Shown: piece by piece, positions 2,322 to 30,854 of the stretch | How positions within the stretch are numbered: position 1 is the stretch's first letter | Layout: the number at the start of each line of letters is the position of its first letter | Assembly: GCA_022425325.1 (NCBI GenBank) | Contig: JAKMFW010000080.1 | Location: 1 to 39,676, forward strand | Direction: 5' to 3' | DNA: 39,676 nt | From: Acidimicrobiales bacterium | GTDB lineage: Bacteria > Actinomycetota > Acidimicrobiia > Acidimicrobiales > Aldehydirespiratoraceae | The notes under the pieces: model-generated | What the model was told of the DNA's origin: nothing | Databases searched by the model: none | The model's input: only the letters and a program-made list of their open reading frames with translations | Translations under genes and position numbers: made by a program

Positions 2322-3074
2322 TCAGCCGCCAATCGGCGAGCCGGATGTGAGGCCCCCGTCGATCGTGAAACAGCTACCGGTCACGAAGGCGGCGTCGTCC
2401 GACGCGAGGTACACGGCGAGTCCGGCGATGTCGTCCGGCGTACCCATGCGGCCGACGGGATGCGCTGCCGTTGCCTCGGCCCGCGCAGCGGCAGGATCGT
2501 CGGTGAGGTCGAAGGCCGCATCGGCGAGGGCCGTCATGATCCAGCCGGGGCTGATCGCATTACACCGCACGCCCTGATGACCGTTGTCGGTGGCGATCGC
2601 TCGCGTCAACGCGTGCACGGCGCCCTTCGAGGCGTTGTAGGCCGCCATCTGATGATCGGCGACATTTCCCGCGATCGAGCCGATATTGATGATCGACCCT
2701 CCTGACGGCTGGGTTGCCATCTGGCGGACCGCAGCACGACAGCAGTTGAAGACGCCGCGCACATTGACGTTCATCACGAGGTCGTAGTCGTCGTCGGTCG
2801 TGTCCTCGATCGGTTTCTCGACCTGCACCCCGGCGTTGTTGACGATCGTGTCGAGACGACCGGTGGCACCGACCGCAGCAGCGATCAGGGCATCGCACGA
2901 TGCTGCGTCGGCGACATCGGTCTCGACCCATGTGACGCCGTCGAGGGTGACCGGGCGGCGGCTGGCGGCGAAGACGGTGGCGCCCTCGGCAATGAACCGG
3001 GCGGCGACCCCCTCACCGATCCCGCTCGATGCGCCGGTGACGATCGTCGTGAGCCCGGCGAGTCGGCTGGTCAC
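2322..3074 (-). CDS. SDR-family NAD(P)-dependent oxidoreductase
   Basis: A classical short-chain dehydrogenase/reductase of 250 residues. The cofactor loop TGASSGIG lies near residues 13-20, the NNAG motif is present, the catalytic Ser precedes the active-site YNASK motif, and the C-terminus reads FTIDGG, as usual in this family. The start is GTG at 3074, overlapping the stop of the TetR gene by four bases (GTGA), so the two are translationally coupled and probably co-transcribed. The substrate is unknown. Pairing with the TetR regulator suggests that the regulator senses a substrate or product of this enzyme or of the divergent genes. Confidence 0.9.
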   Translation of the reverse strand: MTSRLAGLTTIVTGASSGIGEGVAARFIAEGATVFAASRRPVTLDGVTWVETDVADAASCDALIAAAVGATGRLDTIVNNAGVQVEKPIEDTTDDDYDLVMNVNVRGVFNCCRAAVRQMATQPSGGSIINIGSIAGNVADHQMAAYNASKGAVHALTRAIATDNGHQGVRCNAISPGWIMTALADAAFDLTDDPAAARAEATAAHPVGRMGTPDDIAGLAVYLASDDAAFVTGSCFTIDGGLTSGSPIGG

Positions 3075-3646
3075 GTCACGTCACCGAACGCGATCGATTC
3101 GCAGAGTTGGAGGCCCCGCTCGAGCGCGTCTTCGTCAGCCCACCGATTCCAGTTGATCCACAGTCCGTTCTGCAGGGCGAGCACGTCGGTGGTGCGTCGC
3201 CCGACCGCATCCGGGCTGAGCGACCGGTCGACGTCCTTGATCGCAGCATTGAGCTGAGCGGCGCAGCGGTCGTAGAGATCGCGCTCGGCGACCGCCACTT
3301 CGTCGTTGGTGCGGGACACGGCCCAGATGGCGAGCCACATCTCAAGATGTTGTGGATCACTGAACTCCGGGTCGAACCATGAGCGCAGCGCCGCCTTGAC
3401 CCGCGCTCGGGGGTCGTCGCCTACCTCCGCCATACGGTCGGCGATGAGTTGCATCAAGCGTTCGGTGGCCCGCTGGAAGGCGGCGACGACCAGCTTCTCC
3501 TTGCCCTCGAAGTGGTAGCTGAGGAGGCCCAGCGACACGTCGGCCTCCTCGGCGACCGCCCGCATGCTCGTCGAGTCAAGCCCGTCGCGGACGATGACAT
3601 CCATCGCCGCGTCGAGGATCTGTTCCTGGGTCTCGGAGAAATGCAC
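3071..3646 (-). CDS. TetR/AcrR-family transcriptional regulator
   Basis: A 191-residue regulator with an N-terminal TetR helix-turn-helix at about residues 8-55 (EQILDAAMDVIVRDG, then VSLGLLSYHFEGKEKLV), followed by a helical ligand-binding domain resembling the BetI-type C-terminal domain (FDPEFSDPQHLEMWLAIWA). The start is GTG at 3646, with CAGACT ending exactly 6 nt upstream. It is divergent from the deiodinase-like gene with only 25 bases between the starts, so one bound dimer could block both promoters. A 16-bp dyad shared with the DddP-like and EamA promoters overlaps this junction in weaker form, making this protein the obvious candidate regulator. That assignment is inference. Confidence 0.9.
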   Translation of the reverse strand: MHFSETQEQILDAAMDVIVRDGLDSTSMRAVAEEADVSLGLLSYHFEGKEKLVVAAFQRATERLMQLIADRMAEVGDDPRARVKAALRSWFDPEFSDPQHLEMWLAIWAVSRTNDEVAVAERDLYDRCAAQLNAAIKDVDRSLSPDAVGRRTTDVLALQNGLWINWNRWADEDALERGLQLCESIAFGDVT

Positions 3647-3652
3647 GCAAGC

Positions 3653-3658
3653 AGTCTG
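3653..3658 (-). promoter_or_regulatory. -10-like hexamer of the TetR gene (leaderless type)
   Basis: CAGACT on the minus strand ends 6 nt before the GTG start at 3646. The same hexamer with the same 6-nt gap precedes the LLM gene starting at 14921 and soxB at 30791. Confidence 0.45.
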
Positions 3659-3668
3659 GCACGATGCA

Positions 3669-3684
3669 TCCGTGGATCGTTCAG
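3669..3684. promoter_or_regulatory. Weak copy of the CTGGACG dyad at the TetR/deiodinase junction
   Basis: The right part, GATCGTTCAG (3675-3684), is identical to the right part of the dyad at 6398-6383 (minus strand). The left half is degenerate, giving 11 of 16 matches. It overlaps the GTG start of the deiodinase-like gene and lies about 25 bases from the TetR start, a plausible place for an autoregulatory operator. Confidence 0.35.
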
Positions 3685-4406
3685 AACCCGACTACGAGCA
3701 CCCGTATCCGTCACCCGAACTCGAGGCGGCGTATCCCTTCCGGTCCCTCGACTTCGTCGAGTACCCGCCCGAGGAGATGGCCGAACGGGCAGCGGCGTTC
3801 GAGACCTTGATGGCGCATCGCCGCAGCCCCCGGCTGTTCTCGGATCGCCCCGTGCCCCGCGACCTGATCGAGTCGGCAATCCGGACCGCATCGACCGCCC
3901 CCTCGGGTGCGCACAAGCAGCCCTGGCGTTTCGTCGCCACGTCGGCTCCGGCGGTGAAACGAGCGATCCGGGAGGCGGCCGAGGAGGAGGAGCGAGTCAA
4001 CTATCTCGAGAACCGGATGAATGACGAATGGCAGGAAGCACTGGCCCCCATCGGCACCGACCACCACAAGGAGTTTCTCGAGATCGCACCCTGGATCGTC
4101 GTGTTGTTCGAGGAGCGCTACGAGGTGCGGCCCGATGGTGAGCAGCGCAAGAACTACTACGTGAAGGAAAGCTGCGGGATCGCCGCCGGACTCTTCGTCG
4201 CAGCACTGCACAACATGGGGCTCGCCACCCTCACCCACACCCCATCGCCCATGGCTTTCCTCACCCGCGTCCTGGGGCGACCCGAGAACGAGCGGCCCTT
4301 CGTGATGTTCCCGATCGGTTACCCGCTTCCCGGCGTGAAGGTACCCGACTTCGACCGGAAGCCCCTCGATGAAGTAATGGTGGTGGTCGACGAACCGGCC
4401 GACTGA
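3672..4406 (+). CDS. Nitroreductase-fold flavoprotein resembling iodotyrosine deiodinase
   Basis: A 244-residue FMN protein of the nitroreductase superfamily whose closest remembered match is iodotyrosine deiodinase (IYD), which reductively removes halogen from halotyrosines. Shared landmarks in order are HRRSPRLFSDRPVP (49-62), RTASTAPSGAHKQPW (71-85, flavin site), EEEERVNY (104-111), HKEFLEIAP (132-140), a family-like THTP segment (189-191), VLGRPENE, FPIGYP and the end RKPLDEVMVVV. Glu107, Tyr111 and Lys133 fall where IYD has the Glu/Tyr/Lys lid that holds the substrate zwitterion. The animal membrane anchor is absent. GTG 3672 is chosen because homology begins soon after it; upstream codons overlap the TetR gene. 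A generic nitroreductase is the alternative. Confidence 0.82.
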   Translation: MDRSEPDYEHPYPSPELEAAYPFRSLDFVEYPPEEMAERAAAFETLMAHRRSPRLFSDRPVPRDLIESAIRTASTAPSGAHKQPWRFVATSAPAVKRAIREAAEEEERVNYLENRMNDEWQEALAPIGTDHHKEFLEIAPWIVVLFEERYEVRPDGEQRKNYYVKESCGIAAGLFVAALHNMGLATLTHTPSPMAFLTRVLGRPENERPFVMFPIGYPLPGVKVPDFDRKPLDEVMVVVDEPAD

Positions 4407-4428: not shown

Positions 4429-4617
4429 ATGCGTGTTCGAGCCAACCGTGCCGCTCGCCTGCTCGCCGTTGTACTCGCTGGCGGCATCCGCCTGCGTGGT
4501 ATCGGGATCGCAAGCCTCATCGGCGGGGATCTCCGGGCCGTGCTCGGCAACAACCTCGCAGCGTGGCGGCGCGAGAGTACCCGCGTCGGGTTCGCCCCGG
4601 TGGGGGCGGGCCAATGA
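4429..4617 (+). CDS. Possible small protein of 62 residues, or a frameshifted lipoprotein remnant
   Basis: An ATG at 4429 has an excellent AGGGGGA ribosome site six bases upstream, and the frame ends in an ATGA overlap with the thioesterase start, as a coupled gene would. The product (MRVRANRAARLLAVVLAGG at the start) is basic and hydrophobic, resembles a signal or membrane segment, and matches nothing I recognise. In the +1-shifted frame the same DNA gives LAASACVVSGSQ, which looks like a lipobox following that start, so this could be a lipoprotein gene broken by a frameshift. The reverse strand is also open. This fills the 207-base gap between the deiodinase-like and thioesterase genes. Confidence 0.35.
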   Translation: MRVRANRAARLLAVVLAGGIRLRGIGIASLIGGDLRAVLGNNLAAWRRESTRVGFAPVGAGQ

Positions 4618-5072
4618 GCGAGACCCTGTGGGATGTCGAGCGGCTGACGGAGGCCACCCGGCAGTCGGTGCCGATGGCGGCACAGACCCGGGTTGAGGTC
4701 GTGGAGGCCGAACGCGGGCGGGTCGTGCTGCGCATGCCCCTCGAAGGCAACGGCAACCACATCGGCACGATGTACGCCGGCGCGCTTTTCGCGCTCTGTG
4801 AGTTCCCCGGCGGCACGCTCTTCTCGACGACCTTCGATGCGTCGCGGTACTACCCGATCGTCAAAGGCGTCGACATTTCGTTCCGGAAGTTCGCCGGCAC
4901 CGACATCACCGTCGAGGCATCGATGTCGGAAGAGGAGGCCGCCCGCATCGCGGCGGCCGCCGACGAGCACGGGAAGGCCGACTACGACCTCGTGATGGAG
5001 CTGAAGGACACCGACGGCAACGTCGTCGCCATTTCGACCAACCGCTACCAGATGCGAAGCCACGGCATCTGA
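4614..5072 (+). CDS. Hotdog-fold thioesterase-like protein (DUF4442/YiiD-like)
   Basis: A 152-residue single hotdog domain. The stretch GNHIGTMYAGALFALCEFPGG (about residues 44-64) is the helix-containing core of DUF4442/PaaI-like thioesterases, which hydrolyse acyl-CoA or related thioesters. Strand segments SISFRKF-like and NVVAISTNRYQM complete the fold. The ATG at 4614 follows a GGGGGCGGG stretch and overlaps the end of the small upstream frame by four bases. The actual thioester is unknown. The gene sits between the deiodinase-like gene and the DddP-like gene, on the same strand as both. Confidence 0.75.
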   Translation: MSETLWDVERLTEATRQSVPMAAQTRVEVVEAERGRVVLRMPLEGNGNHIGTMYAGALFALCEFPGGTLFSTTFDASRYYPIVKGVDISFRKFAGTDITVEASMSEEEAARIAAAADEHGKADYDLVMELKDTDGNVVAISTNRYQMRSHGI

Positions 5073-5135: not shown

Positions 5136-6326
5136 GTGTCCGGACTGATCGAACTCCTGCCGTCACCCGAGATCGACGAGAATCTGCTCGCCGCTGAGCG
5201 GCTCGAGAACCTGCGCGGCACCATGCTGGCCGACGGTCTGCAGCTCCTCGTCCTCACCAATCCGGTGAGCATCCGCTACGCCACCGGCTACCGGGCGTAT
5301 TCCGCCTTCCAGTCGCGAATTCCGTCGGCCTACGCCATCGTGCCCCTCGTCGGCCCGATCATCATGCACGGCGCCTACATCGAGGATCTTGCGCTCGTCG
5401 AGGTTTCCCGACGCTCCCATGCCATCACGAGTTTCGATGCCGGCCTCGATCTCTCGATCGCCGCCGACCGCTTTGCCGCCGACATCGAACGAGCGCTCAC
5501 CGAGCTGGGCTATGACTCCCGTGACTCGATCGGTATCGAACGCACCACACCGACCGGGCACCGCGCGTTTGCCGACATCGGCCTCAACGTCTTCGACGCG
5601 GAACCGACGGTCGAGCTCGCTCGAAGTCGTAAATCCGATCTCGAGATGGTGGCGCTCGACTACTCGATTGCCGTCGCCGAATACGGCATGACGCTGATGG
5701 AACGGGCGCTCGAACCTGGCGTCACCGAGAACCAACTGTTCGCCCTGTTGCACCAGACCAACATCGCCCACGACGGCGACTGGATCGACGGCCGCATGCT
5801 GTGCTCTGGTCCCCGAACCAATCCCTGGTATCAGGAGGCGAGTCATCGCACGATCGAGCAGGGCGACATGGTCGCGTTCGACACCGACATGATCGGCCCG
5901 TACGGCTACTGCGCCGACATCTCCCGCACCTGGGTGTGCGGCGACGACCCGAACCCCGACCAGCGGGATCTCTACAAGCGGGCACTCGAGGAGATCTGGC
6001 ACAACACGTCGCTCCTGCACGTCGGCGCTTCGTTTGCCGAGCTCTCACAGAACGCCTACCGCCAGCCTGATGCGTACGTCGCCAACCGCTACGCCTGCGT
6101 GTACCACGGCGTCGGCATGAGCGATGAGTATCCGAAGATCCCCTACCCCCAGGACTGGGAATGGACCGGGTACGACGGAGAACTCGAGGACGGTGTCGTG
6201 CTGTCCGTCGAGTCCTATGTCGGCGCAGAAGGGGGATCGCAGGGGGTCAAGCTCGAGCAGATGGTTCGGGTGACCTCGGGCGGGGTCGAGGCCTTGTCGA
6301 GCTATCCCTTCTGGGATCCCTCTTGA
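5136..6326 (+). CDS. M24-family metalloenzyme resembling DMSP lyase DddP
   Basis: A 396-residue protein with the creatinase/aminopeptidase-P N-domain (1 to about 160) and the M24 pita-bread domain. Metal-ligand candidates are Asp249, Asp251, Asp261, His324, Glu359 and Glu374. Their spacings (2, 10, 63, 35 and 15) nearly equal those I recall for DddP (Asp295, 297, 307, His371, Glu406, 421: 2, 10, 64, 35, 15) and differ from classic M24 peptidases, where the two Asp are 11 apart. Asp330 (HGVGMSD) and Tyr319 occupy the places of DddP's proposed base Asp377 and substrate-site Tyr366. DddP cleaves dimethylsulfoniopropionate to acrylate and DMS. It lacks DddP's roughly 50-residue N-terminal extension, and a peptidase or other C-S/C-N lyase remains possible. 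GTG start; operator and promoter lie just upstream. Confidence 0.78.
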   Translation: MSGLIELLPSPEIDENLLAAERLENLRGTMLADGLQLLVLTNPVSIRYATGYRAYSAFQSRIPSAYAIVPLVGPIIMHGAYIEDLALVEVSRRSHAITSFDAGLDLSIAADRFAADIERALTELGYDSRDSIGIERTTPTGHRAFADIGLNVFDAEPTVELARSRKSDLEMVALDYSIAVAEYGMTLMERALEPGVTENQLFALLHQTNIAHDGDWIDGRMLCSGPRTNPWYQEASHRTIEQGDMVAFDTDMIGPYGYCADISRTWVCGDDPNPDQRDLYKRALEEIWHNTSLLHVGASFAELSQNAYRQPDAYVANRYACVYHGVGMSDEYPKIPYPQDWEWTGYDGELEDGVVLSVESYVGAEGGSQGVKLEQMVRVTSGGVEALSSYPFWDPS

Positions 6327-6348: not shown

Positions 6349-6398
6349 CTGGACGTTTGTTCAGGATGGCCGTACACTGAGGCTGAACGATCGTCCAG
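6349..6398. promoter_or_regulatory. Pair of inverted CTGGACG dyads flanking the EamA-operon promoter
   Basis: CTGGACGTTTGTTCAG (6349-6364) and, on the opposite strand, CTGGACGATCGTTCAG (6398-6383) are 14 of 16 identical and face each other across an 18-base spacer. The arrangement also makes a long imperfect hairpin (TGGACG-N3-GTTCAG ... CTGAAC-N3-CGTCCA), so a terminator role for the preceding gene cannot be excluded. The spacer holds TACACT, a good -10, and TGGACG is itself a fair -35 seventeen bases away, so two repressor dimers would cover the promoter. Confidence 0.65.
6373..6378 (+). promoter_or_regulatory. -10 element of the EamA-dehydrogenase-aldolase-dehydratase operon
   Basis: TACACT lies 17 bases downstream of TGGACG (6350-6355), a sigma-70-like pair with four of six consensus bases in each hexamer. 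Transcription would start near 6385 and leave a short leader carrying the GGTGGGGG ribosome site before the ATG at 6416. Confidence 0.45.
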
Positions 6399-6415
6399 TC
6401 CCGGGTGGGGGCCGC

Positions 6416-7393
6416 ATGCAAACCGACACCCGCCCTGCGGAGATACCGACGCCCAACGAGCGTCCGATGAGCGAGACGACTGCCACCCTCCTCGTCGTCG
6501 TGACGTCGATCCTGATGGGTTCCGTCCCGGTGTTTGCTCGAGAGCTCACCGACGCCGGCCTGAGTGCCGTCTCGGTGAGCTTCTACCGCAATCTTCTCGG
6601 GGCGGTCGTGCTCTTTCGCCTGTTGCGCTTCGACGGCGCTCGCCGGAGCGCGACCCTGTGGGCGCTCGGTGCCGGGTGTGGCATGGGACTCGGCTGGACC
6701 GCCTATGTGCGCGCCGTCGAGGTGGTCCCCGTCTCGACCGCCGGCGTCATCTACATGAGCTACCCGCTCTTCGCGATCGTGTTGGCCTGGGCGTTGTTCC
6801 GAGAGACCCCGACCCGACGGGCAATGATCTCCGGCATGATCGTGCTGCTCGCCTCCATCGTTGCGATGGGACCCGAACTCGGCGGCGAGACCGACGTTTT
6901 GGTGGTTGCGTTCGCCGCGCCACTCTCCTTCGGGTTTGCCGTCGCCGTGCTCACCGAACGGTTGGCGTCGTTGCGCCCGATCGAACGGGTCGCTCCGATC
7001 GCGTTCGGTTCCACCGTCGGTCTGCTCCCGATCATGGCAACCCAGCCGTTCGACGCGTCGATCCCGTCGAGCCTGTCGACGTGGGTCCTTGCTCTCGGCA
7101 TCGCGCTGTTCACTGCGATCGGGCCACAGTGGATGTACTCGTCGGCAGCACCCCGCGTCGGCCCCGCTCGTGCTGCGGTCGCCGGCTCGGTCGAGCTTCC
7201 GATGATGTTCCTTGTGGGCTATCTCTGGTTCGATGAGGCGCTCACCTGGCAACAGGGGCTCGCCGGTCTGATGGTGCTCGGTGCCATCCTGCTCGTTCCG
7301 TCTCGTCCGTCGCCGGGTCTCGCCATGGTCCGGCGCAAGCGGCGCCTGATCCCGGGTCGCTTCTACTCATCCTCCGTGGAGACTTCGCCATGA
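6416..7393 (+). CDS. EamA/DMT-family transporter
   Basis: A 325-residue integral membrane protein with about ten hydrophobic segments arranged as two EamA repeats (for example TATLLVVVTSILMGSVPVFA near residue 19 and GAVVLFRLL near residue 63; the second half starts near 160). Such drug/metabolite-type carriers move small solutes or metabolites across the cytoplasmic membrane. The first ATG is used because GGTGGGGG precedes it; a second Met at residue 18 is possible. The stop overlaps the next start by four bases, so it is the first gene of a four-gene operon and probably imports or exports that pathway's metabolite. The substrate is unknown. Confidence 0.85.
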   Translation: MQTDTRPAEIPTPNERPMSETTATLLVVVTSILMGSVPVFARELTDAGLSAVSVSFYRNLLGAVVLFRLLRFDGARRSATLWALGAGCGMGLGWTAYVRAVEVVPVSTAGVIYMSYPLFAIVLAWALFRETPTRRAMISGMIVLLASIVAMGPELGGETDVLVVAFAAPLSFGFAVAVLTERLASLRPIERVAPIAFGSTVGLLPIMATQPFDASIPSSLSTWVLALGIALFTAIGPQWMYSSAAPRVGPARAAVAGSVELPMMFLVGYLWFDEALTWQQGLAGLMVLGAILLVPSRPSPGLAMVRRKRRLIPGRFYSSSVETSP

Positions 7394-8283
7394 CCACCAT
7401 CTTCTTTCTCGGTGTCGGCCACATGGGTGGCGGCATGGCGGCGAACCTGGCAAAGGCCGGCTTTGACGTACTCGCCTACGACATCAGCGACGACAACCTC
7501 GCTCGCGCCGTGGCGAACGGCTGCACGGCGGCCGAGTCCACCGCTGCCGGTGCCGCTGCGGCCGATGTCGTCATGACGTCGTTGCCCGGGCCGATGCAGA
7601 TCTCGTCGACCGCTCAGATGGACGACGGTCTGCTCCCGAACATGCGACCCGGAACCGTGTGGATCGACCTGTCGACCAATGATCTCGACACCGCGCGGAT
7701 GCTGGCGGAAGCGGCTGCCGAACGCGGCATCACCCTGATCGACGCGCCGGTCTCGGGCGGTCCCGAGGGAGCGGCTGCCGGCACGCTGAGCGTGTATGTC
7801 GGGGGTCCCGAGCAGGCGGTCATCGATCTGATGCCGGTCTTCGAGGCGATCGGCGCCAACGTCGACCATCTCGGCCCGCACGGCGCCGGGTACGTCGCCA
7901 AAATTGCCCAGGTCACGCTCTGCTACACCCAGACCATCACGTTCGTCGAAGCACTGATGCTCGGCGTCAAGGGCGGGGTCGCCCCGGCCAAGATGACCGA
8001 GCTGATCCAGAAGTCGGCCGGTCGCAGCTATGTCGCCGACGTCTACGGTCCCGAGATCGTTGCCGGCACCTACGACGAGTCGTTCTCGATCGCCCTCGCC
8101 GCCAAGGACATGCGACTGGCGATGGAGATGGCGTCCACGATGGACGCCGACCTGCCCTTCATGGCCCGTGTCGCCGAGCGCTACGCGGCCGCTGAGGCAC
8201 ACTATGGACCAGCTGCGCCGCATCTGCTGGCCGCCCAGATGACCGAAACCGCCAACGAGCTGATCTTCAGCGAACAGTCCTGA
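7390..8283 (+). CDS. 3-hydroxyisobutyrate dehydrogenase-family NAD(P) oxidoreductase
   Basis: A 297-residue beta-hydroxyacid dehydrogenase. The N-terminal Rossmann loop is FLGVGHMGGGMAANL (6-20). The substrate signature DAPVSGG lies at 118-124 with the usual Gly-rich follow-on, and the catalytic Lys is Lys171 in GAGYVAKIAQ. The family oxidises or reduces short 3-hydroxy acids (3-hydroxyisobutyrate, 3-hydroxypropionate, tartronate semialdehyde, threonate); the sequence alone does not decide among these. The start codon overlaps the EamA stop (ATGA), and the aldolase gene follows after 10 bases. A 3-hydroxypropionate role downstream of acrylate is one possibility given the DddP-like neighbour, but this is speculation. 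Confidence 0.88.
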   Translation: MTTIFFLGVGHMGGGMAANLAKAGFDVLAYDISDDNLARAVANGCTAAESTAAGAAAADVVMTSLPGPMQISSTAQMDDGLLPNMRPGTVWIDLSTNDLDTARMLAEAAAERGITLIDAPVSGGPEGAAAGTLSVYVGGPEQAVIDLMPVFEAIGANVDHLGPHGAGYVAKIAQVTLCYTQTITFVEALMLGVKGGVAPAKMTELIQKSAGRSYVADVYGPEIVAGTYDESFSIALAAKDMRLAMEMASTMDADLPFMARVAERYAAAEAHYGPAAPHLLAAQMTETANELIFSEQS

Positions 8284-8293
8284 CAGGAGCGTC

Positions 8294-9079
8294 ATGACCG
8301 ATACCCAGCAGCCCCGTGAAGTCGTCGCCGAGGACTTTGCTGCCGTCAACTCTGGCAGTTACGCCGGGGAAGAGTGGCAGGCCCGCGTCGACCTCGCTGC
8401 GATGTACCGCCTGTCGGCCCACTTCGGGTACGACGACACCATCTGGAACCACATCACGATGCGGGTGCCCGGCAGCGACCACGATTTCTTCCTGAACAAG
8501 TTCGGCCTGCTCTACAACGAGGTCACTGCCTCGAACCTGATCAAGATCGACGCCGAGGGCAACGTGCTCGAAGGGCCGGCCGACGTGAACACCGCCGGTT
8601 TCGTGATCCACGGCGCGATCCACAATGACTTCCCCCAGTGGAAGGTTGTGTTCCACGCCCACGTGCCCGAGGCGCTTGCGGTCACGGCGCTCAAGGACGG
8701 GTTCCAGCACCTCGTGCAGGACACTTCGATGCTCTACGGCGACATCGGCTACCACGACTGGGAAGGCCTCTCGCTCACGCTCGAAGAACGTGAACGTCTC
8801 GCCGAGAACATGCAGGGCAAGCGGGCACTCATCATGCGAAACCACGGGTTCCTCACCGTCGGCGAGACCGCCGGCGAGGCCTTCATGGTCATGCACTATC
8901 TGATCCGCGGTTGCCGAGCGCTGCTCGCCGCCGCCGGCTCGGGACTCGAACTCGACCCGGGCCCGAAGGAGATCTGGGAACTCTCGAAGCGCCAGTACGA
9001 CCACTTCCCGCTCGGGCAGTACGAGTGGCCAGCACTCGTTCGCCTCTGCGAGCGTCTCGACCCCGGCTTCAAGCAGTAG
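8294..9079 (+). CDS. Class II aldolase/adducin-family protein
   Basis: A 261-residue single class II aldolase domain. Zinc-ligand candidates are the two His of FHAHVPEA (about residues 119-121) and the later His of MRNHGFLTVG. The acidic catalytic region and the adducin-like HDFFLNKFGLLYNEVTASNL segment are also present. Family members cleave or decarboxylate phosphorylated or free sugar-acid derivatives. An AGGAG site lies five bases before the ATG. It sits between a 3-hydroxyacid dehydrogenase and an enolase-superfamily dehydratase, a grouping common in acid-sugar catabolism, though no sugar kinase is present. Confidence 0.88.
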   Translation: MTDTQQPREVVAEDFAAVNSGSYAGEEWQARVDLAAMYRLSAHFGYDDTIWNHITMRVPGSDHDFFLNKFGLLYNEVTASNLIKIDAEGNVLEGPADVNTAGFVIHGAIHNDFPQWKVVFHAHVPEALAVTALKDGFQHLVQDTSMLYGDIGYHDWEGLSLTLEERERLAENMQGKRALIMRNHGFLTVGETAGEAFMVMHYLIRGCRALLAAAGSGLELDPGPKEIWELSKRQYDHFPLGQYEWPALVRLCERLDPGFKQ

Positions 9080-9081
9080 TC

Positions 9082-10179
9082 GTGCACGACTCGGGTGCGT
9101 TGATCGAGAACATCTCGACCGAGGTCGTCCTCGTCCCGCTGACGCGCCCGGTCGGCACATCGATCCACCAGATCGAATCCGTCGGCTGTGTGCTCGTCAC
9201 GGTACGCACCGCCGACGGAGTCACCGGTGAAGGCTTCTGTTTCACGATTGACGGCGCCCGCATCCGAGCGTTCGACGAGATGGTGAAGGGGCTCGCCCAG
9301 TTCGCCATCGGCCGCTCGGTCTTCGAAGCAGGCCGTATCTGGGCCGACGTCTGGGGTGCGATCAACCCCACCGGACACAAGGGCGTCACCGTCGCCGGCT
9401 TCTCGGCGATCGACACTGCAGTGTGGGACGCCGCCGCAAAGACGGTCGGGCTTCCGCTCCACCGCATGTGGGGTGCGGTCACCGACCGGGTCGACGCCTA
9501 CGCATCGGCCGGCTTCTGGCTCAGCGATTCCACCGAGACGCTCGTCGGTGAGGCGCAGCGCTTCACCGAGATGGGGTTCCGGGCGGTGAAGATCCGAGTC
9601 GGTCACGACCTGCCCACCGACCTCGAACGCATCCGCACCGTGCAGTCCGAACTCGGCGACGGCATTGCGATCTACACCGACGCCAATCAGGCATTCGAAC
9701 CGAAAGAGGCGATCCGTCGCGGCCTCGCCCTCGCGGACGCCGGCGTCACCTGGTTCGAGGAACCTGTCGCCGCCGGCGACTTCGCAGGGCACGCGATGGT
9801 CCGCGCTGCCCTTCCGATCGACGTGGCGTCCGGTGAGACCGAATACACCCGCTTCGGCATGCAGCAGTATCTCGATGCCGGCTCGGTCGATGTGCTCATG
9901 CCCGATCTTCAGCGGGTCGGCGGCTACACCGAGTTCAAGGTCGCTGCCTCGGCTGCCGCCGCAAAGAATGTGCCGATCTCATCGCACTTCTTCACCGAGT
10001 ACTCGCTTGCCGTCGGCGGCAGCGAAGTCGGGTGCCGCACGATCGAGTCGATCGACTGGTTCCAGCCGCTCTTCAACGAAGCGCCCGAACTCGTCGACGG
10101 CCAGCTCGTCGTTCCCGACCGGCCAGGGCACGGCTTTACGTTCGACCGCAAGGCGGTCGCCCATCACGCCATCGACTAG
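9082..10179 (+). CDS. Mandelate racemase/muconate lactonizing enzyme-family protein (probable acid-sugar dehydratase)
   Basis: A 365-residue enolase-superfamily enzyme. The N-terminal capping domain covers about 1-125 and the barrel the rest. Candidate catalytic residues are Lys170 and Arg172 (VKIRVG, a KxR rather than KxK motif), metal ligands Asp200, Glu226 or 227 (WFEEP) and Glu252 (GETEY), and the Asp275/His302 dyad (PDLQRVGG, SSHFF) of the mandelate racemase subgroup. This set suits alpha-proton abstraction and dehydration of a hydroxy acid. GTG 9082 is used; it lies two bases after the aldolase stop, and homology starts there. Last gene of the operon; its end overlaps the convergent SDR gene by four bases. 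Confidence 0.85.
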   Translation: MHDSGALIENISTEVVLVPLTRPVGTSIHQIESVGCVLVTVRTADGVTGEGFCFTIDGARIRAFDEMVKGLAQFAIGRSVFEAGRIWADVWGAINPTGHKGVTVAGFSAIDTAVWDAAAKTVGLPLHRMWGAVTDRVDAYASAGFWLSDSTETLVGEAQRFTEMGFRAVKIRVGHDLPTDLERIRTVQSELGDGIAIYTDANQAFEPKEAIRRGLALADAGVTWFEEPVAAGDFAGHAMVRAALPIDVASGETEYTRFGMQQYLDAGSVDVLMPDLQRVGGYTEFKVAASAAAAKNVPISSHFFTEYSLAVGGSEVGCRTIESIDWFQPLFNEAPELVDGQLVVPDRPGHGFTFDRKAVAHHAID

Positions 10180-11024
10180 TCGAGGTCGACAATCCCGAAG
10201 ATCTGCGGGTTTCGGTTCTCGACGATGCTGGCGTGCTTCTCGCGCAGCATCTCGACCATGCCCAGATCGGTGAAGATCCAGAAGCGATTGTTCACGATCG
10301 CGTCGTGCACGAGGTCGGCGACGGCGTCGGGCTCCATGCCACCGTCGATGGCGGCCTTCACGAACGCTCGGGCGGCCTGCTGCTCCTCGGTCGGTTCGTA
10401 GAGCGCAGGCGGTGCTGCGGACTCGGGTTGGTTGCGGCTCGCCTCGGCGATCTCGGTGCGGACCCACCCCGGGCACAGACACGACACACCGATACCTGTC
10501 TGGTCGGTGGCCATCGTGTTGTACAGGCCCTGGGTGATGCCGACCACAGCCCACTTGCTCGCCGTGTAGGGCGAGTGGCCCGGCAGGTGGCCCGCCATCG
10601 ATGCCGTGTTGACGACGTGCCCTTCGCCCTGCTCGATCATGCGGGGGATGAATGCCCGGTGACCGTGGACGACACCCCAGAAGTTCACGCCCATCACCCA
10701 CTCCCATGCGCCAACCGAGATGAAGTCCGGGTTGGGGGCTTCGGCGACGCCGGCGTTGTTGCACAGCACGTGGACACCGCCGAACTCTCCGAAGGCGAGA
10801 TCGGCGAGCTGATCGACCGCAGCGCCGTCGGCGACATCGGTGATCTGGCCGATGACGCGGGTGCCGTGAGCCGCCACTTCGGCGACAGCATCATCGAGCT
10901 TCGGGGCCTCGATGTCGCTCAGGACGACATTCATGCCCTCACGAGCGAAACGGTTGGCAAACGCTCGGCCCATGCCGCTGGCGGCGCCCGTGACGACGGC
11001 GGTCTTGTCGGAAAGATCCTGCAT
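10176..11024 (-). CDS. SDR-family oxidoreductase
   Basis: A 282-residue classical SDR with TGAASGMG at about residues 13-20, the NNAG motif (CNNAGVAE), catalytic YTASK, and a C-terminal extension after the core (IVNNRFWIFTDLGMVEML). This long C-terminus recalls SDRs acting on larger hydrophobic or ring substrates, but the substrate is unknown. The ATG at 11024 is preceded by TACGGT with a 7-nt gap and no ribosome site. It is divergent from the sarcosine-oxidase-like gene with 47 bases between starts. Confidence 0.88.
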   Translation of the reverse strand: MQDLSDKTAVVTGAASGMGRAFANRFAREGMNVVLSDIEAPKLDDAVAEVAAHGTRVIGQITDVADGAAVDQLADLAFGEFGGVHVLCNNAGVAEAPNPDFISVGAWEWVMGVNFWGVVHGHRAFIPRMIEQGEGHVVNTASMAGHLPGHSPYTASKWAVVGITQGLYNTMATDQTGIGVSCLCPGWVRTEIAEASRNQPESAAPPALYEPTEEQQAARAFVKAAIDGGMEPDAVADLVHDAIVNNRFWIFTDLGMVEMLREKHASIVENRNPQIFGIVDLD

Positions 11025-11071: not shown

Positions 11072-12223
11072 ATGACCTCTCACGAGCGTGTCGATGTCGC
11101 TGTCATCGGTCGGGGCCTGATCGGCTCCGGCGCCGGACGTCATCTCGCCGAATCCGGCCGGTCGATGGCACTGATCGGGCCGGGAGAACCCTCCGACTGG
11201 AACACATCCGACGGGCCGTTCTCGTCTCATCATGACCAAGGTCGCATCACCCGCATCGCCGGCCGGAACGCAATGTGGACCGAAGTGGCCGCCCACGCCT
11301 GCGCTCGATACGCCGACATCGAAGCCCGCTCCGGCATCGGATTCCACACCCCACGGGGTGTGCTCGTCTCGTATCCCGACGCCGCCGACTGGGTCGACCG
11401 CGCCGAGCACTGGGGGAGCGACGCCCACCTCGTCGATCCGGATTGGGTGCGGAGCGAGACGGGTGTGGCGATCGAGAGCGGGCTCGACATCGCGTTCGAG
11501 GGAGCGCCGGCCGGCCATATCAACCCGCGACGACTCGTCGCCGCCCAGACCCGCCTCACCGAACTCGCAGGGGGCACGGTGATCGATGATGCTGTGCGAG
11601 CTGTCGAGCGTCGCGACGGTGGTTTCGAACTCTCCGGGGCGTTCGGCTCGATCATGGCCGATCGAATCCTCGTGTCGACCGGTGGCTTCGGTTCGGAACT
11701 CTTCGACTGGAAACTCGATGTCGAGCGCCGAGCCCGCACCATCGTGATGGCCCGCCTCGCTGACGACGGTCGGATTCCCAGCCTGATCCTCGACCAGCCG
11801 CCGGACGACCGGATCCAGGAGGTCTATTGGGTGCCTCCGGTGGAGTATCCCGACGGCTCGGTCCGTATCAAGATCGGCGGCAACATGAAGGACACGATCT
11901 TTCTCGAACCCGACGAACTCGTCGACTGGTTCCACGGTGACGGCGACCCGGCCGAGATCGACTGCCTCGGCAACAACCTCCGCGCCCTGTTGCCCGACGC
12001 ACCGCTTGGTGATGTCACGACGCAGCCGTGCGTCATCACTGGCACCCCCACCGGGATGCCCTACATTGGCACGGTCGACGACGGCATCGGTGTTGCGATC
12101 GCCGGCAACGGCTCGGCTGCGAAATCGAGTGACGAACTCGGTCGACTGGGCGCCTCGCTCTTCGGCGAGGCCGGCTGGGACTCCGGACTCGACCCGTCGC
12201 TTTTCACGCCGCAGTTCGCCTGA
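11072..12223 (+). CDS. FAD-dependent oxidoreductase of the monomeric sarcosine oxidase/N-methyl amino acid oxidase type
   Basis: A 383-residue DAO-fold flavoenzyme. The dinucleotide loop VIGRGLIGSG lies at 11-20. SSHHDQGRITRIA (51-63) matches the SSHGxxRIxR-like segment of MSOX. Cys320 in TTQPCVITGTP sits where MSOX attaches FAD covalently (CxYTxTPD-like motif), so covalent flavin is likely. The enzyme would oxidise the N-methyl or amine group of an amino acid, giving formaldehyde or an imine plus hydrogen peroxide. It lies apart from the soxBDAG operon. Its stop directly abuts the stop of the convergent TauE gene, with no spacer. Confidence 0.82.
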   Translation: MTSHERVDVAVIGRGLIGSGAGRHLAESGRSMALIGPGEPSDWNTSDGPFSSHHDQGRITRIAGRNAMWTEVAAHACARYADIEARSGIGFHTPRGVLVSYPDAADWVDRAEHWGSDAHLVDPDWVRSETGVAIESGLDIAFEGAPAGHINPRRLVAAQTRLTELAGGTVIDDAVRAVERRDGGFELSGAFGSIMADRILVSTGGFGSELFDWKLDVERRARTIVMARLADDGRIPSLILDQPPDDRIQEVYWVPPVEYPDGSVRIKIGGNMKDTIFLEPDELVDWFHGDGDPAEIDCLGNNLRALLPDAPLGDVTTQPCVITGTPTGMPYIGTVDDGIGVAIAGNGSAAKSSDELGRLGASLFGEAGWDSGLDPSLFTPQFA

Positions 12224-18678: not shown

Positions 18679-19935
18679 CTACTCCGGAGTGGGCAGCGAG
18701 GCCTTGCCGGTCTCGATGCGGGTGCGCGTTCCCTCGATCTGGCTCGTGCGGATGTCGACGGGGACGGTCGCCGCCAACTCGTCGATGCGCAGGCGAGCCG
18801 TCTGGGGCCGGATGCGGCCGGCGTTCGCCATCGCCTCGTGGCGGAGCCCCGCCGTGTGCTTTTTGCGCACCTGGTGCGGCTGGTAGTCGCTCATGTCGTC
18901 GACCGTGACGTCCCGCTCGATCGTGAGTGCCCCTGCGGCCTCGGCCGCAGCGAGAAGTTCCTGGCCAGCGACCGTGCGTGCGATCGCCGCATTCACCCCG
19001 AGATCGGTCTCGCTCTCCTCCCGAGTGGGTGAGCCCCCCGGCCAGGTGTCGGAGACGGCGATGTCGGCGACCTCGCCGATGCCGTCGGGACAGATCTTGC
19101 AGCGCCACGGAAGGCCCCAACTGCTGTCGTCGTCACCCCAGTAATCGAGGTAGTGGCGTTCCTCGACCTGGTCACCGGCCTCGATTCGGGTCGGGCCGGG
19201 GCAGCCGTAGCCGCGATAGCGCAGCGCCGTGACCTCATCGGGTTCGATGCCGACACTGCGGATGAAGCCGTCGGTGAACCCCGGTTCGCCGAAGCCCCCG
19301 CACACCGGCGTGAGCCAGTAGCGGACGAGCTCGTCGACCCGGTCGTCGTGGCGGGCGTGGTTGCGCAAGGCGGCGAGGTCGCACGGCTTGCCGATGAAGG
19401 CGAATGGCTGGTCGTGATCAAGTGCGTCGTTGATGGTGCGAAGCGTGGCGGTGGGTCCGTAGCGGGACCCCGCCCCGGCGAGCACCTCGGCCTCGGTGAA
19501 GCTCATCGTCGGCTCGCCGAAGCTCGGCTCGGTGGTCGACGCCTTCACATGCAGAACGAACTCGACTCGGCCTGACGCGACGAGGAACTGGGCGAGAGCG
19601 GTGAGCACGCCACCGGTCGAGCCGATGTGGCGCACGTCGGGGTCGCCGGCCCATGCCCGCACGATGCGCCGCACCGGACCCCAGACGGCGTCGACGACGG
19701 TGTCGTCAGCCACCAGTCGATCGGGGAGGCCTTCGACGCGGGTGCCGGGACAGACGTCGTAGATCCGGTCGACCGTGGTGTCGTGAAGTTCTCCGATCAC
19801 CACGGGCACCTCGAAGCCGGTGGTGGTCTTGCGGACCGTGATCGACTGCGGCGCGAGTGCCTCGCAGAGTCCGCAGCCGATGCAGAGGCCCTGCTCGACG
19901 ATGGCGTTCAGCCGTTCGGTCGGTGAAGGTGACAT
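18679..19935 (-). CDS. FrhB-type iron-sulfur flavoprotein (coenzyme F420 hydrogenase/dehydrogenase beta-subunit family)
   Basis: A 418-residue protein with an N-terminal ferredoxin-like cluster site (Cys18, Cys21, Cys24 in LCIGCGLCE, with Cys62 in VCPG as likely fourth ligand) and the FrhB N and C domains, including GSTGGVLTALAQFLV (flavin site), IGKPCDLAALRNHA, RYRGYGCPGP and WRCKICPDG. The family moves electrons between ferredoxin or F420 and a flavin. The ATG at 19935 has GGAG six bases upstream; a much longer open frame upstream is antisense shadow. It is divergent from a PLP-enzyme/MttB/dehydrogenase cluster, so it could supply electrons to that system, for example to reactivate a corrinoid. 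This is inference. Confidence 0.85.
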   Translation of the reverse strand: MSPSPTERLNAIVEQGLCIGCGLCEALAPQSITVRKTTTGFEVPVVIGELHDTTVDRIYDVCPGTRVEGLPDRLVADDTVVDAVWGPVRRIVRAWAGDPDVRHIGSTGGVLTALAQFLVASGRVEFVLHVKASTTEPSFGEPTMSFTEAEVLAGAGSRYGPTATLRTINDALDHDQPFAFIGKPCDLAALRNHARHDDRVDELVRYWLTPVCGGFGEPGFTDGFIRSVGIEPDEVTALRYRGYGCPGPTRIEAGDQVEERHYLDYWGDDDSSWGLPWRCKICPDGIGEVADIAVSDTWPGGSPTREESETDLGVNAAIARTVAGQELLAAAEAAGALTIERDVTVDDMSDYQPHQVRKKHTAGLRHEAMANAGRIRPQTARLRIDELAATVPVDIRTSQIEGTRTRIETGKASLPTPE

Positions 19936-20089
19936 CAGCGGCTCCGTGGTGCGGGTGGTGGACCGGTACGTGACGCCATCATGGCAGCCGGCCGCCCGTG
20001 CGGCAGCCGCTTCCCACCCGCCGATCGGGTCTTGCGTCCACGCGTGACGGGGAGGGCCTCGACGAATCGGACCGGCGGGCGTGAGGCCG

Positions 20090-21357: not shown

Positions 21358-22863
21358 GTGGCTCGCCGAGGCAACCGCACCCGTCCGGCTCCGCCGCCGC
21401 TGCCGGTCGTCACCCCCGCGCCGTCGGGTGGCGCCTACCGCCCGCTGTCGGACATCGATCGCGACCGCATCGTCGAGCATGCGTTCGAGATGCTCGAGCA
21501 CGTCGGTATGGCTGACGCTCCCGATCGATACGCCGAGCTCCTGATCGCCGCTGGTGGTCGCCGGCGCGACGATGGCCGAGTTCTACTGCCCCGACCGATG
21601 GTCGAGGCGGCGCTCGACCGCGCGCCGTCGACGGTCGAACTGCCTGGCTTCGTCGACGACCACGGTGTGTCGATCGGAGGGAAGGGTGTGCACATCGGCA
21701 CCGGAGGTGCTGCCGTGCAGATACTCGATGCCGCCACCGGCACCTACCGAGATTCGGTGCTCGGTGACCTCTGGACGATGATGCGCGTCGTCGACGAGTT
21801 GCCCAGCATTCACTACGGCCTGCGCCCGCTGGTGGCTCGTGACATCGAGGATCCGCTGGAACTCGATCTCAACACCGCCTTCGCGGTCACCGCCGCCACC
21901 GCGAAGCCGACGGGCGTGAGCTTCACGTCGGCCGACACCGTCGATCCCGTCGTCGACCTGTTCGACATGATGCTCGGCGGCACGGGGCGCTTCGCAGCCC
22001 AGCCGTTCTCGATGGCGGTGGTCGTCCACGTCGTTCCACCGCTCCGCTTCTCGCCCGAGGGCTGCGAGATCATGGAGCGGGCGATCGAGCGGGGGATGAT
22101 CATCCAGACCTGCTCCGCCGGACAGGCCGGAGCCACCTCGCCGCCGTCGCTCGCCGGATCGCTGGCGCAGGGCCTTGCCGAGATTCTCGCCGGTGTGGTG
22201 CTCGCCGATGCCATCAAGCCCAGCCATCCGTGCATCCATGCGTTCATGCCGTTCGTTTCCGACCTGCGTACCGGTGCCATGACCGGTGGCAGTGGCGAGG
22301 CGGCGGTCGTGTCGGCGGCGGCCGCTCAACTGCTGCGAGATCTCGACATTCCCAATGCCGTTTCCGCCGGCATCACCGAATCGAAGACCGCCGACGCTCA
22401 GGCAGGCTATGAGAAGAGCTACACCGTCACGCTCTCGGCGCACGCCGGCGCCGACATGGTGCAACTCTCCGTCGGCATGCTCGGCTCGATCATGGTGGCG
22501 AGTCCCGAGATCCTCGTGATCGACGCCGACATGTGCGGTGCCATCCTTCGCTCGGTCCGAGGGGTCGAGGTCGACCCGTCCTATCTCGACCTCGCCGTCA
22601 TCGAGGATGTCGTCAGCGGCGAGGGGCACTACCTCGGGAGTCCGCAGACGCTCGAGTTGATGCGCAGCGAATATGTCTACCCCGACCTCGGTGATCGCCA
22701 GTCGGTCGCCGAGTGGGTGTCGGCCGGCGAGCCGAGCATCTGGGATGCGGCCGGCCAGAAGGTCGCTGAGATCTTGGCGGCCGGGCGACCGGACCATCTC
22801 GACACGACGAACGAGGCTGCGGTTCGCGCAGCGTTCCCGATCCATCTGGAGCAACACCCGTGA
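21358..22863 (+). CDS. MttB/MtgB-family (trimethylamine/glycine betaine) corrinoid methyltransferase, non-pyrrolysine
   Basis: A 501-residue TIM-barrel methyltransferase of the MttB superfamily. After a Pro-rich 20-residue start it has the family blocks LPGFVDDHGVSIGGKGVHIGTGG-like (strand-loop with GTGG near residue 118), PLELDLNTAFAVTAATAKPTG, TGGSGEAAVVSAAAAQLLRDL and SAGITESKTADAQAGYEKSY. No in-frame stop interrupts it, so it lacks pyrrolysine and resembles the glycine betaine:corrinoid branch. It would move a methyl group from a quaternary amine to a corrinoid protein. GTG 21358 follows the PLP gene by 3 bases, and its stop overlaps the next start (GTGA). No corrinoid protein gene is present in the window. 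Confidence 0.88.
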   Translation: MARRGNRTRPAPPPLPVVTPAPSGGAYRPLSDIDRDRIVEHAFEMLEHVGMADAPDRYAELLIAAGGRRRDDGRVLLPRPMVEAALDRAPSTVELPGFVDDHGVSIGGKGVHIGTGGAAVQILDAATGTYRDSVLGDLWTMMRVVDELPSIHYGLRPLVARDIEDPLELDLNTAFAVTAATAKPTGVSFTSADTVDPVVDLFDMMLGGTGRFAAQPFSMAVVVHVVPPLRFSPEGCEIMERAIERGMIIQTCSAGQAGATSPPSLAGSLAQGLAEILAGVVLADAIKPSHPCIHAFMPFVSDLRTGAMTGGSGEAAVVSAAAAQLLRDLDIPNAVSAGITESKTADAQAGYEKSYTVTLSAHAGADMVQLSVGMLGSIMVASPEILVIDADMCGAILRSVRGVEVDPSYLDLAVIEDVVSGEGHYLGSPQTLELMRSEYVYPDLGDRQSVAEWVSAGEPSIWDAAGQKVAEILAAGRPDHLDTTNEAAVRAAFPIHLEQHP

Positions 22864-25325: not shown

Positions 25326-25339
25326 ACGGAGTCGGGCAA

Positions 25340-25780
25340 TCAGACCGGCGCCATGGCGGTCATGTGGTTCCGGATCGCCGAGAGTCCGGCTCGGATCTCT
25401 GCTGCAACCTCGAGCGCCGGGGTACTGGTGCGGGCCGCGATCTCTGCATGATCGAGGCGGTCGACGAGCGCGAGTGTGACGAGACGGCGACGAGGCTCGG
25501 TGAGCTTCCGGAGCCCGTCGGCAATCCGGATGCGCTCGACCGCGTCTGCGACCGCGCTCGGATCGGCATGGGTGGCGAGTCGCCGTGCCGTTTCGTCGAG
25601 CAGGGCCGGAGCCTGATCGGCCTCGCCCTGAGCGGCGACGGCCACGAAGATGTCGCGGGTGAGCGCCGAAGCATTCTTCTCGCCGAGAAACCGACGACAG
25701 AGGGTGAAAATCGTCGAGCCGTGGACGTCGAAGGCCCGACGGATGTCGATGGCCTGGTGTTCGAGTGTCGTGTTCGCCAC
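25340..25780 (-). CDS. Sigma-70/ECF-like small protein with degenerate core-binding region
   Basis: A 146-residue helical protein shaped like an ECF sigma factor. Residues about 12-50 (AFDVHGSTIFTLCRRFLG, then ALTRDIFVAV) resemble region 2 but lack the usual acidic DAED run. Residues about 92-140 (LRKLTEPRRRLVTLALVDRLDHAEIA) resemble the region 4 helix-turn-helix. The start is GTG at 25780, with AAGGGA five bases upstream; the frame is open a further 17 codons. It follows soxG on the same strand after 101 bases, without a clear promoter between. It may regulate the neighbouring methylamine genes, or be a decayed sigma or anti-sigma component. Confidence 0.6.
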   Translation of the reverse strand: MANTTLEHQAIDIRRAFDVHGSTIFTLCRRFLGEKNASALTRDIFVAVAAQGEADQAPALLDETARRLATHADPSAVADAVERIRIADGLRKLTEPRRRLVTLALVDRLDHAEIAARTSTPALEVAAEIRAGLSAIRNHMTAMAPV

Positions 25781-25881
25781 GAAAGTCCCTTGATCCCGAA
25801 GAACGGTTCGGCGGCGCTGACGAGACAGCACCTCGGAAAGGACTTTCGACCGATTAGACGCCGGTCAAACACAGCTCGTGA

Positions 25882-26370
25882 TCAGAACTCCGATGCGGCG
25901 TCGTGCAACGCGCCCAGGAAATACGTGATGAAGCTGCCATCGAGCAACAGCAGATAGCTCCGCACGCCACGTTGGTCGTCACGCACGATGTCGCATGTGA
26001 CACCGGCGATGCCGTTGCCCAGCGCTGCGCCGTTGGGGGTCATGTGATCGCTGAAGTCCGCGCTCCCGAGCTTGGACAACGTGTCGGCGGCACAATCGCC
26101 GGTGATACGAACGGCGGTGCGGCTGTGGCTGATGTCAACCGTCGAGGCGAAGCCCGAGAGGTCGAGACCGGCCGCCATCGCGGGAGCGCCATCGCCGAGC
26201 AGGTACCACTCGTCGGGCCGGATTCGCACGACGAGGGTCTCGCCTCGCTGCTCCGCCGAGCCGAAGTTCAGGCCGAGTGTCGCGGCCGCTGCGGTGCCGT
26301 CCGCGGCCCGCACGCTGGCCTTGGGCACGCGGGTGTCGGGCGATGCATCGAGGTGGGTGATCTCAACCAC
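25882..26370 (-). CDS. soxG: Sarcosine oxidase gamma subunit
   Basis: A 162-residue protein matching the SoxG family, a GcvT-like-fold subunit of heterotetrameric sarcosine oxidase. Typical segments are VRIRPDEWYLLGDG, TVDISHSRTAVRITG (near residue 85), LGSADFSDH and SYLLLLDGSFITYFLGAL at the C-terminus. The GTG at 26370 is preceded by AAGGAG and overlaps the soxA stop by eight bases. It is the last gene of soxBDAG. The subunit helps assemble the complex and has no known catalytic residues. Confidence 0.85.
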   Translation of the reverse strand: MVEITHLDASPDTRVPKASVRAADGTAAAATLGLNFGSAEQRGETLVVRIRPDEWYLLGDGAPAMAAGLDLSGFASTVDISHSRTAVRITGDCAADTLSKLGSADFSDHMTPNGAALGNGIAGVTCDIVRDDQRGVRSYLLLLDGSFITYFLGALHDAASEF

Positions 26371-29493: not shown

Positions 29494-29495
29494 GA

Positions 29496-30791: not shown

Positions 30792-30797
30792 CGCCCC

Positions 30798-30803
30798 AGT
30801 CTG
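30798..30803 (-). promoter_or_regulatory. -10-like hexamer of the soxBDAG operon (leaderless type)
   Basis: CAGACT on the minus strand ends 6 nt before the soxB ATG. The 69-base divergent spacer to the LysR gene should contain the LysR-binding site, but no convincing T-N11-A dyad was picked out. Confidence 0.45.
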
Positions 30804-30848
30804 CCCGATCCGCTCATGCGGGTGAAGGAGGGAATTCGGTGCGATTGA

Positions 30849-30854
30849 TATGAT
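30849..30854 (+). promoter_or_regulatory. -10 hexamer of the LysR gene (leaderless type)
   Basis: TATGAT, five of six consensus bases, ends 6 nt before the ATG at 30861, so transcription should start at or next to the start codon. It is the best example of this arrangement in the window. Confidence 0.6.

Follow-up and report, generated by a model that had tools for sequence, protein, structure and literature searches.

Closest described systems

The closest described relative of the protein considered here is the DMSP lyase DddP, represented by the structures of RlDddP (4rzy) and RdDddP (4b28) and by the curated model NF043017. The metal ligands of RdDddP are Asp295, Asp297, Asp307, His371, Glu406, and Glu421, with Asp377 as the proposed base and Tyr366 as a further catalytic residue (PMC4108388). 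An N-terminal extension spans RdDddP residues 10-50 (PMC4108388). In DddP, a Trp, left unnumbered in the text, binds the sulfonium together with a Tyr, and an Asp and a Phe stand where M24 peptidases have their two substrate histidines (PMC5395565).

Surveys tally dddP homologues to gauge the number of marine bacteria that produce DMS. The gene has previously been reported in Acidimicrobiia (PMC7494906; PMC13280387), and culture work describes DMS-releasing actinobacteria without known ddd genes (PMC6309047).

Two other kinds of M24 protein are relevant. DoeA ectoine hydrolase and creatinase, which are non-peptidases, are hydrolases with a role in small osmolyte or amine catabolism. The PID-5 APP domain and PA2G4/Ebp1 are M24 pseudoenzymes that have lost metal ligands but still adopt the fold; PID-5 resembles aminopeptidase P, is likely inactive, and has been proposed as a partner of the active APP-1 (PMC10377022).

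The DddP-like protein and its active site

The window analyzed here is a 39,676-nucleotide stretch from an Acidimicrobiales bacterium (contig JAKMFW010000080.1) that encodes a DddP-like protein (Table 1), read by the initial annotation as a candidate DMSP lyase. The protein carries Peptidase_M24 and Creatinase_N Pfam matches, and phmmer against RlDddP (4rzy) returns an E-value of 1.5e-61. RlDddP and RdDddP top a PDB sequence search at 208-212 bits; the next chain reaches 41. All six metal-ligand positions (Asp249, Asp251, Asp261, His324, Glu359, and Glu374), the base equivalent Asp330, and Tyr319 are present where they had been placed from the sequence alone. Alignment pairs D249, D251, D261, H324, E359, E374, D330, and Y319 with D295, D297, D307, H371, E406, E421, D377, and Y366 of RlDddP. 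The sole spacing difference from RlDddP lies between the third Asp and the His (63 vs. 64 residues), bearing out the one-residue exception between Asp261 and His324 that had been predicted. A second spacing argument, that the two central Asp residues lie 10 apart here and 11 apart in classic M24 peptidases, named ligands that are indeed present but compared different pairs; the classic M24 pair corresponds to Asp249 and Asp261, which lie 12 apart.

Table 1. Position and strand of the features of the window; identities and scores are given as remarks.
Feature	Position	Strand	Remarks
SDR dehydrogenase	2322..3074	-	several g1 and g7 genomes have a 76-96% orthologue close to the DddP-like gene; the Pseudomonas MPC6 one is at 49%
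TetR regulator, BetI-type C-terminal domain	3071..3646	-	divergent from the cluster
Nitroreductase-family protein	3564..4406	+	
DUF4442/YiiD-type thioesterase-like protein	4563..5072	+	
DddP-like M24 lyase-type protein, 396 aa	5136..6326	+	GTG start, 396 codons
Phe58 codon	5307..5309	+	RlDddP Trp95 equivalent; Phe/Tyr in most of the clade
Tyr232 codon	5829..5831	+	aligns with RlDddP Phe278; takes the place of the first M24 peptidase His
Ligand codons Asp249, Asp251, Asp261	5880..5918	+	Asp251 is Asn in G006 and G005
Tyr319, His324 (ligand), Asp330 (base)	6090..6125	+	
Ligand codons Glu359, Glu374	6210..6257	+	Glu374 replaced by Lys (G004) or Gly (G006)
EamA transporter	6416..7393	+	adjoins the DddP-like gene in G002, G006, and four g7 genomes
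3-Hydroxyisobutyrate/2-hydroxy-3-oxopropionate dehydrogenase-like protein (HIBADH)	7390..8283	+	18-codon remnant in G006
Class II aldolase, PRK07044 subfamily	8294..9079	+	272 bits, cut-off 207
Enolase-superfamily (MR_MLE) dehydratase-like protein, talarate/galactarate dehydratase-like	9037..10179	+	227/500 bits; start uncertain; 67-codon remnant in G004
Second SDR dehydrogenase	10176..11024	-	63% homologue beside the aldolase/HIBADH pair in G021
FAD amine/amino-acid oxidase (DAO)	11072..12223	+	same stretch as the DddP-like gene in G002, G004, G006, and four g7 genomes
FrhB/FdhB-like flavoprotein	18679..19965	-	part of an over-long ORF; neighbors of the DddP-like gene in Pontibacterium and Pseudomonas MPC6 are 48% identical
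MttB-superfamily methyltransferase and FAD/GcvT dehydrogenase	21358..25325	+	no in-frame TAG in the methyltransferase; methylated-amine type, 15 kb away

The site departs from that of the peptidases of the family. Asp251 corresponds to the extra, DddP-type ligand, so the five-ligand M24 peptidase site is not matched, and both peptidase histidines are substituted, by Tyr232 and Asp330. The Pfam matches, and the label "Xaa-Pro peptidase family protein" on many plasmid relatives, would suit an ordinary Xaa-Pro peptidase, but with both substrate histidines replaced, a DddP-type sixth ligand in place, and the listed peptidase models scoring at most 33.1 bits, this identity is highly improbable. It was set aside on the absent histidines and the scores.

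The site also departs from DddP. Identity to RlDddP and RdDddP is 32%, and RlDddP Trp95, Asn96, His98, and Phe278 correspond to Phe58, Gln59, Arg61, and Tyr232; Trp277 of RlDddP is retained as Trp231. The NF043017 score is 266.9 bits, less than half the curated cut-off of 600. Scores against the DoeA models are 40.8 bits for NF038259 (cut-off 575) and 19.6 bits for TIGR02993 (cut-off 613).

An AlphaFold model (mean pLDDT 91.8, from a 21-row alignment) shows the pita-bread fold with a Creatinase_N domain, as is characteristic of M24 proteins. It superposes on RlDddP 4rzy with Z 46.4 and an rmsd of 2.2 over 391 residues. After the DddPs, the next matches are Xaa-Pro dipeptidases (best Z 35.1), and DoeA and creatinase match at Z 32-33. 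Placement among the prolidases, the opposing outcome raised by the annotation, is contradicted by the replaced histidines and by this gap in fold score (Z 35 vs. 46). The N-terminal extension had been described as missing; it is largely, but not wholly, absent, with the model aligning from RlDddP residue 35.

Phylogenetic placement

The window protein falls in a clade separate from DddP. Rows were restricted to proteins of at least 280 aa; a quick tree of 94 rows and a careful tree of 66 of these agree on placements. In the careful tree, a 23-row clade (support 100/99) holds the window protein, Marinomonas sp. MED121, Pontibacterium, other Acidimicrobiales, and plasmid-borne proteins of Pseudomonas MPC6, Alisedimentitalea, and Mesorhizobium. 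A second clade (100/99) unites RlDddP and RdDddP with the DddPs annotated in Loktanella, Paracoccus, and Oceanisphaera. Forcing the window clade and five DddPs together lowers the log-likelihood by 66 and is rejected (p-AU 0.0002). An order-wide search, in which 27 of 397 genomes drawn from a larger group scored above threshold, adds 17 loci. A fast tree, built without L104, L005, and L053, places 16 of them inside the window clade, for a total of 39 rows; L144 falls outside and is not counted.

The position of Trp95 separates the groups further. Phe or Tyr occupies it nearly everywhere in the window clade; the exceptions are Met (L030, G007) and Val (G005), and the partial L139 has no residue there. 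The following residue is Gln in every clade row with sequence there and in no row outside the clade.

By sequence, the window protein is a member of a distinct clade in the DddP-like branch of M24, outside DddP, because it groups separately, the union is rejected, its score is 267 of 600 bits, and Phe58 replaces Trp95. DddP membership was ruled out on the tree placement and the AU test. The annotation's description of a DddP-like M24 enzyme therefore stands for fold, ligands, base, and Tyr, and fails for membership in DddP itself; the alignment, tree, and fold comparison that it proposed return a DddP fold apart from the peptidases, but in a clade of its own. Its alternative, a related but distinct lyase, fits this separate clade better and is the best supported reading of the sequence comparisons. 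At loose cut-offs the window clade (267 bits for the window protein, 257 for one altered member) could be counted as DddP in surveys, despite forming a branch of its own in which some members have lost catalytic residues.

The host genome and its DddP paralogues

Three named records 94-98% identical to the window protein are titled as Acidimicrobiaceae MAGs, in agreement with the actinobacterial origin given in the annotation. We take these MAGs to be marine. Orthologues at 94-98% identity occur in three genomes of the same genus, and at 79% in two more.

The host genome (G000; 2.6 Mb, 95% complete) encodes three DddP-like proteins, which score 464 (C42:37215-38444), 327 (C42:66623-67780), and 266 bits (window) against NF043017; a fourth match reaches 44.5 bits. 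By this score, the window protein ranks last of the three in likeness to DddP. The 464-bit paralogue (L054:9210-10457), which adjoins an FAD/GcvT gene, belongs to the same superfamily with its key residues intact. It differs from the window protein in keeping Trp95 (with the equivalents of Tyr366 and Asp377), in joining the DddP clade in a wider group (98/84), and in being 44% identical to RlDddP but 35% to the window protein; it still scores below the 600-bit cut-off. The suggestion of a first DddP in actinobacteria was dropped in view of the reports of dddP in Acidimicrobiia cited above, and novelty by phylum likewise gives way to these reports and to the closer candidate in the same genome.

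The host genome also encodes three DmdA-like (DMSP demethylase-like) proteins, on C78, C79, and C73, that score 338-379 bits against a cut-off of 410.

These observations bear on whether the window protein is a true DMSP lyase, with DMSP as its main physiological substrate and DMS and acrylate as products. All DddP catalytic residues are retained, and 32% identity is no exclusion here, as a fungal enzyme 32% identical to RdDddP makes DMS (PMC4108388). With three DmdA-like proteins in the genome, DMSP may be met, and the HIBADH-like dehydrogenase could oxidize 3-hydroxypropionate derived from acrylate. Against this, the protein lies outside the DddP clade at 267 of 600 bits, carries Phe, Gln, Arg, and Tyr for Trp95, Asn96, His98, and Phe278, and shares its genome with a closer DddP candidate that has the Trp. 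A true DMSP lyase is thus unlikely, and DMSP is probably not the native substrate, or at least not the sole one.

Gene neighborhood and likely substrate class

Along one strand of the window run genes for a nitroreductase, a thioesterase-like protein, the DddP-like protein, EamA, the HIBADH-like dehydrogenase, the class II aldolase, and the MR_MLE protein, with the BetI-type TetR regulator and an SDR divergent. The DddP-like gene of Marinomonas MED121 (49%) lies with aldolase (61%), HIBADH (39%), and MR_MLE (46%) genes, as well as BCCT and SMR transporters and a 2-hydroxyacid dehydrogenase. The Pontibacterium locus holds aldolase (64%) and HIBADH (38%), and that of Pseudomonas MPC6 holds MR_MLE (47%), SDR (49%), and glycine-betaine ABC genes. 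Glycine-betaine ABC genes also occur at the Mesorhizobium locus, together with MttB-type genes, and near the DddP-like gene of G009 (genus g2) lie genes for a GbcA-like Rieske oxygenase and an FAD/GcvT protein. G077 has consecutive HIBADH, aldolase (86%), and MR_MLE genes, on a different contig from its DddP-like gene. The Alisedimentitalea neighborhood holds guanidino/polyamine-type genes and no annotated betaine gene, and the host genome itself gave no BCCT match. The domain-model scan covered the neighborhoods other than those of g7, G077, and L081.

Farther along the window, at 21358-31406, MttB-superfamily, FAD/GcvT, and sarcosine oxidase alpha/beta-like genes make up a stretch of methylated-amine type. 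These genes and the FrhB-like gene lie 12-25 kb from the DddP-like gene; the FrhB-like protein is 38-40% identical to ones encoded near members of the DddP-like clade in three g2 genomes.

From the betaine-type neighbors across the clade (ABC, BCCT, MttB, GbcA-like, and FAD/GcvT genes) we tentatively infer a carboxylated onium substrate for the DddP-like protein. Alternatively, the window protein could be a different type of M24 enzyme, breaking a C-N bond by hydrolysis as DoeA or creatinase does. The DAO, SoxAB-like, and FAD/GcvT genes of the window are of N-methyl amine type, sarcosine oxidase acts after creatinase in known pathways, and the window protein has the fold (Z 32-33) and two-domain layout of DoeA and creatinase. 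Yet Asp251 as an extra ligand and Asp330 in place of a peptidase His make up the DddP arrangement; DoeA (models at most 41 bits) lies far below DddP in sequence score, and both hydrolases lie far below it in fold score. A hydrolase is therefore rather unlikely.

Catalytic-residue substitutions in sister species

The gene is present in six of nine genomes of the genus, the named ones being MAGs. All 33 clade members found outside the genus (17 + 16 rows, one of them partial) keep all eight key residues, as do the window protein and its G002 orthologue; the other four of the six genus orthologues have lost one to three. The substitutions are D330Y and E374K in G004; D251N, D330G, and E374G in G006; D251N, Y319S, and D330A in G005; and Y319S in G007. 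Two of the altered orthologues are 94-96% identical to the intact window form.

These changes are concentrated on the active site. The test used 48 columns that do not vary among the window protein and 32 full-length rows from outside the genus (the partial L139 was left out). At these columns 12 changes are inferred within the genus, and 8 of the 12 strike the eight key residues (binomial P 1.6e-4, with invariant columns taken as equally mutable, shared changes counted by parsimony, and the eight residues fixed beforehand). The same test on the earlier 17 rows gives 8 of 12 at 56 columns (P 5e-5). Counted per genome, G004 and G006 have about as many changes at invariant columns as chance would give, and G005 and G007 have fewer; what stands out is how the changes concentrate on key residues rather than how many there are.

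The altered genes have intact reading frames, and dN/dS against the window gene is 0.05 (G004), 0.07 (G006), 0.13 (G007), and 0.11 (G005). Values for neighboring genes in the same four genomes (0.03-0.19) span this range. G005 and G007 have Ser319 in common and differ from each other at dN/dS 0.107 (dS 0.59). By these measures, the altered orthologues are retained under purifying selection despite their catalytic substitutions. Residue loss in a protein under selection, the mark of a pseudoenzyme, is seen at the sequence level in four of the six genus orthologues and not in the window protein.

Alanine at the metal ligands inactivates RnDddP (PMC4108388), and PDB titles record Y366A and D377N mutants crystallized with acrylate. 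Given these mutants, DddP-type activity is not expected of the altered orthologues. Creatinase has a metal-free activity, and the altered orthologues may likewise have a metal-free or new one.

Loss of the downstream genes

Aldolase orthologues of at least 88% identity occur in G000, G002, G014, G021, G026, and G031, all of which have an intact DddP-like site. Genome searches of the altered G004, G005, G006, and G007 find only distant aldolase paralogues (at most 32%), as do those of G001, G003, and G008, which have no window-type gene (at most 33%). HIBADH shows the same split (at least 69% vs. at most 37%). The G031 aldolase, with one in-frame stop, and the G026 HIBADH, split over two contigs, were both counted as present. 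The G005 and G007 contigs end about 430-480 bases past the gene, and the absence of the pair there rests on completeness of 86% and 93%. The search covered genomes other than those of L081 and 16 order-level rows.

Two deletions can be traced directly. G004 has lost the equivalent of window positions 6396-9974, leaving 67 MR_MLE codons, and G006 the equivalent of 7446-10173, leaving 18 HIBADH codons. Because their break points differ, the deletions look like separate events starting from the full arrangement. The G004 MR_MLE remnant has 10 non-synonymous differences over 153 sites (dN 0.068, a small sample), compared with dN 0.007 between the window and G002 and dN 0.015 for the G004 DddP-like gene. 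Since the gene has diverged so much less than the remnant, it has probably been constrained since the deletion, although the remnant is short and the residue losses are undated.

An intact site does not always go with the aldolase, and strict coupling of the two was rejected as a rule: six g2 genomes with intact sites gave no aldolase match at E 1e-45, and the g2 genomes inspected have a different gene cluster.

In G004, a stretch absent from the window lies between the nitroreductase and thioesterase genes (L057:6056-8606) and holds an 850-codon open frame.

The losses could also mean little, if the altered orthologues are decaying or misassembled genes. The genomes are few, two of them have deletions beside the gene, and the undated losses could postdate most of the divergence. 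However, the frames are intact, dN/dS (0.05-0.13) lies in the range of the neighbors, the G004 remnant has diverged (dN 0.068, 10 changes in a small sample) well beyond the DddP-like gene (0.015), the changes strike catalytic residues more often than other invariant columns, and G005 and G007 differ at dN/dS 0.107 while sharing Ser319. Decay or misassembly is distinctly unlikely, and the pattern suggests a retained protein that has been repeatedly disarmed within the genus.

Proposed function

We know of no measured activity for the window clade. An open-access PMC literature search found no paper on a betaine-acting M24 lyase and none on DddP as a pseudoenzyme.

In our judgment, the following proposal is about as likely as not: the window protein acts as a DddP-type lyase on a carboxylated onium compound, and its sister forms have been disarmed but kept in a second role. 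A small onium acid resembling a betaine or DMSP would bind the metals through its carboxylate, Asp330 would take the alpha proton, and the onium group would depart by beta-elimination. The carbon product would pass to the enzymes encoded by the linked genes: the HIBADH-like dehydrogenase, the class II aldolase, and the MR_MLE dehydratase. On chemical grounds alone, the head group of algal betaine lipids, hydroxymethyl-trimethyl-beta-alanine, is one candidate substrate, because its elimination product would suit a 3-hydroxyisobutyrate-type dehydrogenase. The lyase reaction might be useless or harmful in a genome that has lost the downstream steps, and the disarmed protein could then serve a second, non-catalytic role, conceivably as dimer partner of an active paralogue, for which the pairing of PID-5 with APP-1 offers a precedent. 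Like PID-5 and PA2G4/Ebp1, the altered orthologues would keep the M24 fold after metal-ligand loss; those proteins are eukaryotic, whereas here the loss falls within one bacterial genus, repeatedly, and with gene deletion. The full history, in which one actinobacterial genus combines repeated disarming alongside downstream deletion with a selected second role, the intact form being an onium lyase, is more tentative and falls slightly short of an even call.

If the disarming is real, the genus preserves a near step-by-step record of catalysis being lost while the protein is retained. Altered forms 94-96% identical to the intact one would make the cause directly testable at the bench.

Other DddP-like clades

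Paralogues of the type of the 327-bit host protein (L055, L027, L028, L108-L114) form a second DddP-like clade; every row seen has Gly at the Asp377 position, and the metal ligands are retained. Records from SAR11 (Pelagibacteraceae; L086-L095) form their own DddP-like clade, 36-38% identical to the window protein; the one member scanned scores 353 bits against the DddP model. A further DddP-like clade, which includes Ensifer (one copy each in L036, L040, L044, and L045; L046; L100), has Asn for both Tyr366 and Asp377 and retains the metal ligands, and the base has been replaced repeatedly across the superfamily.
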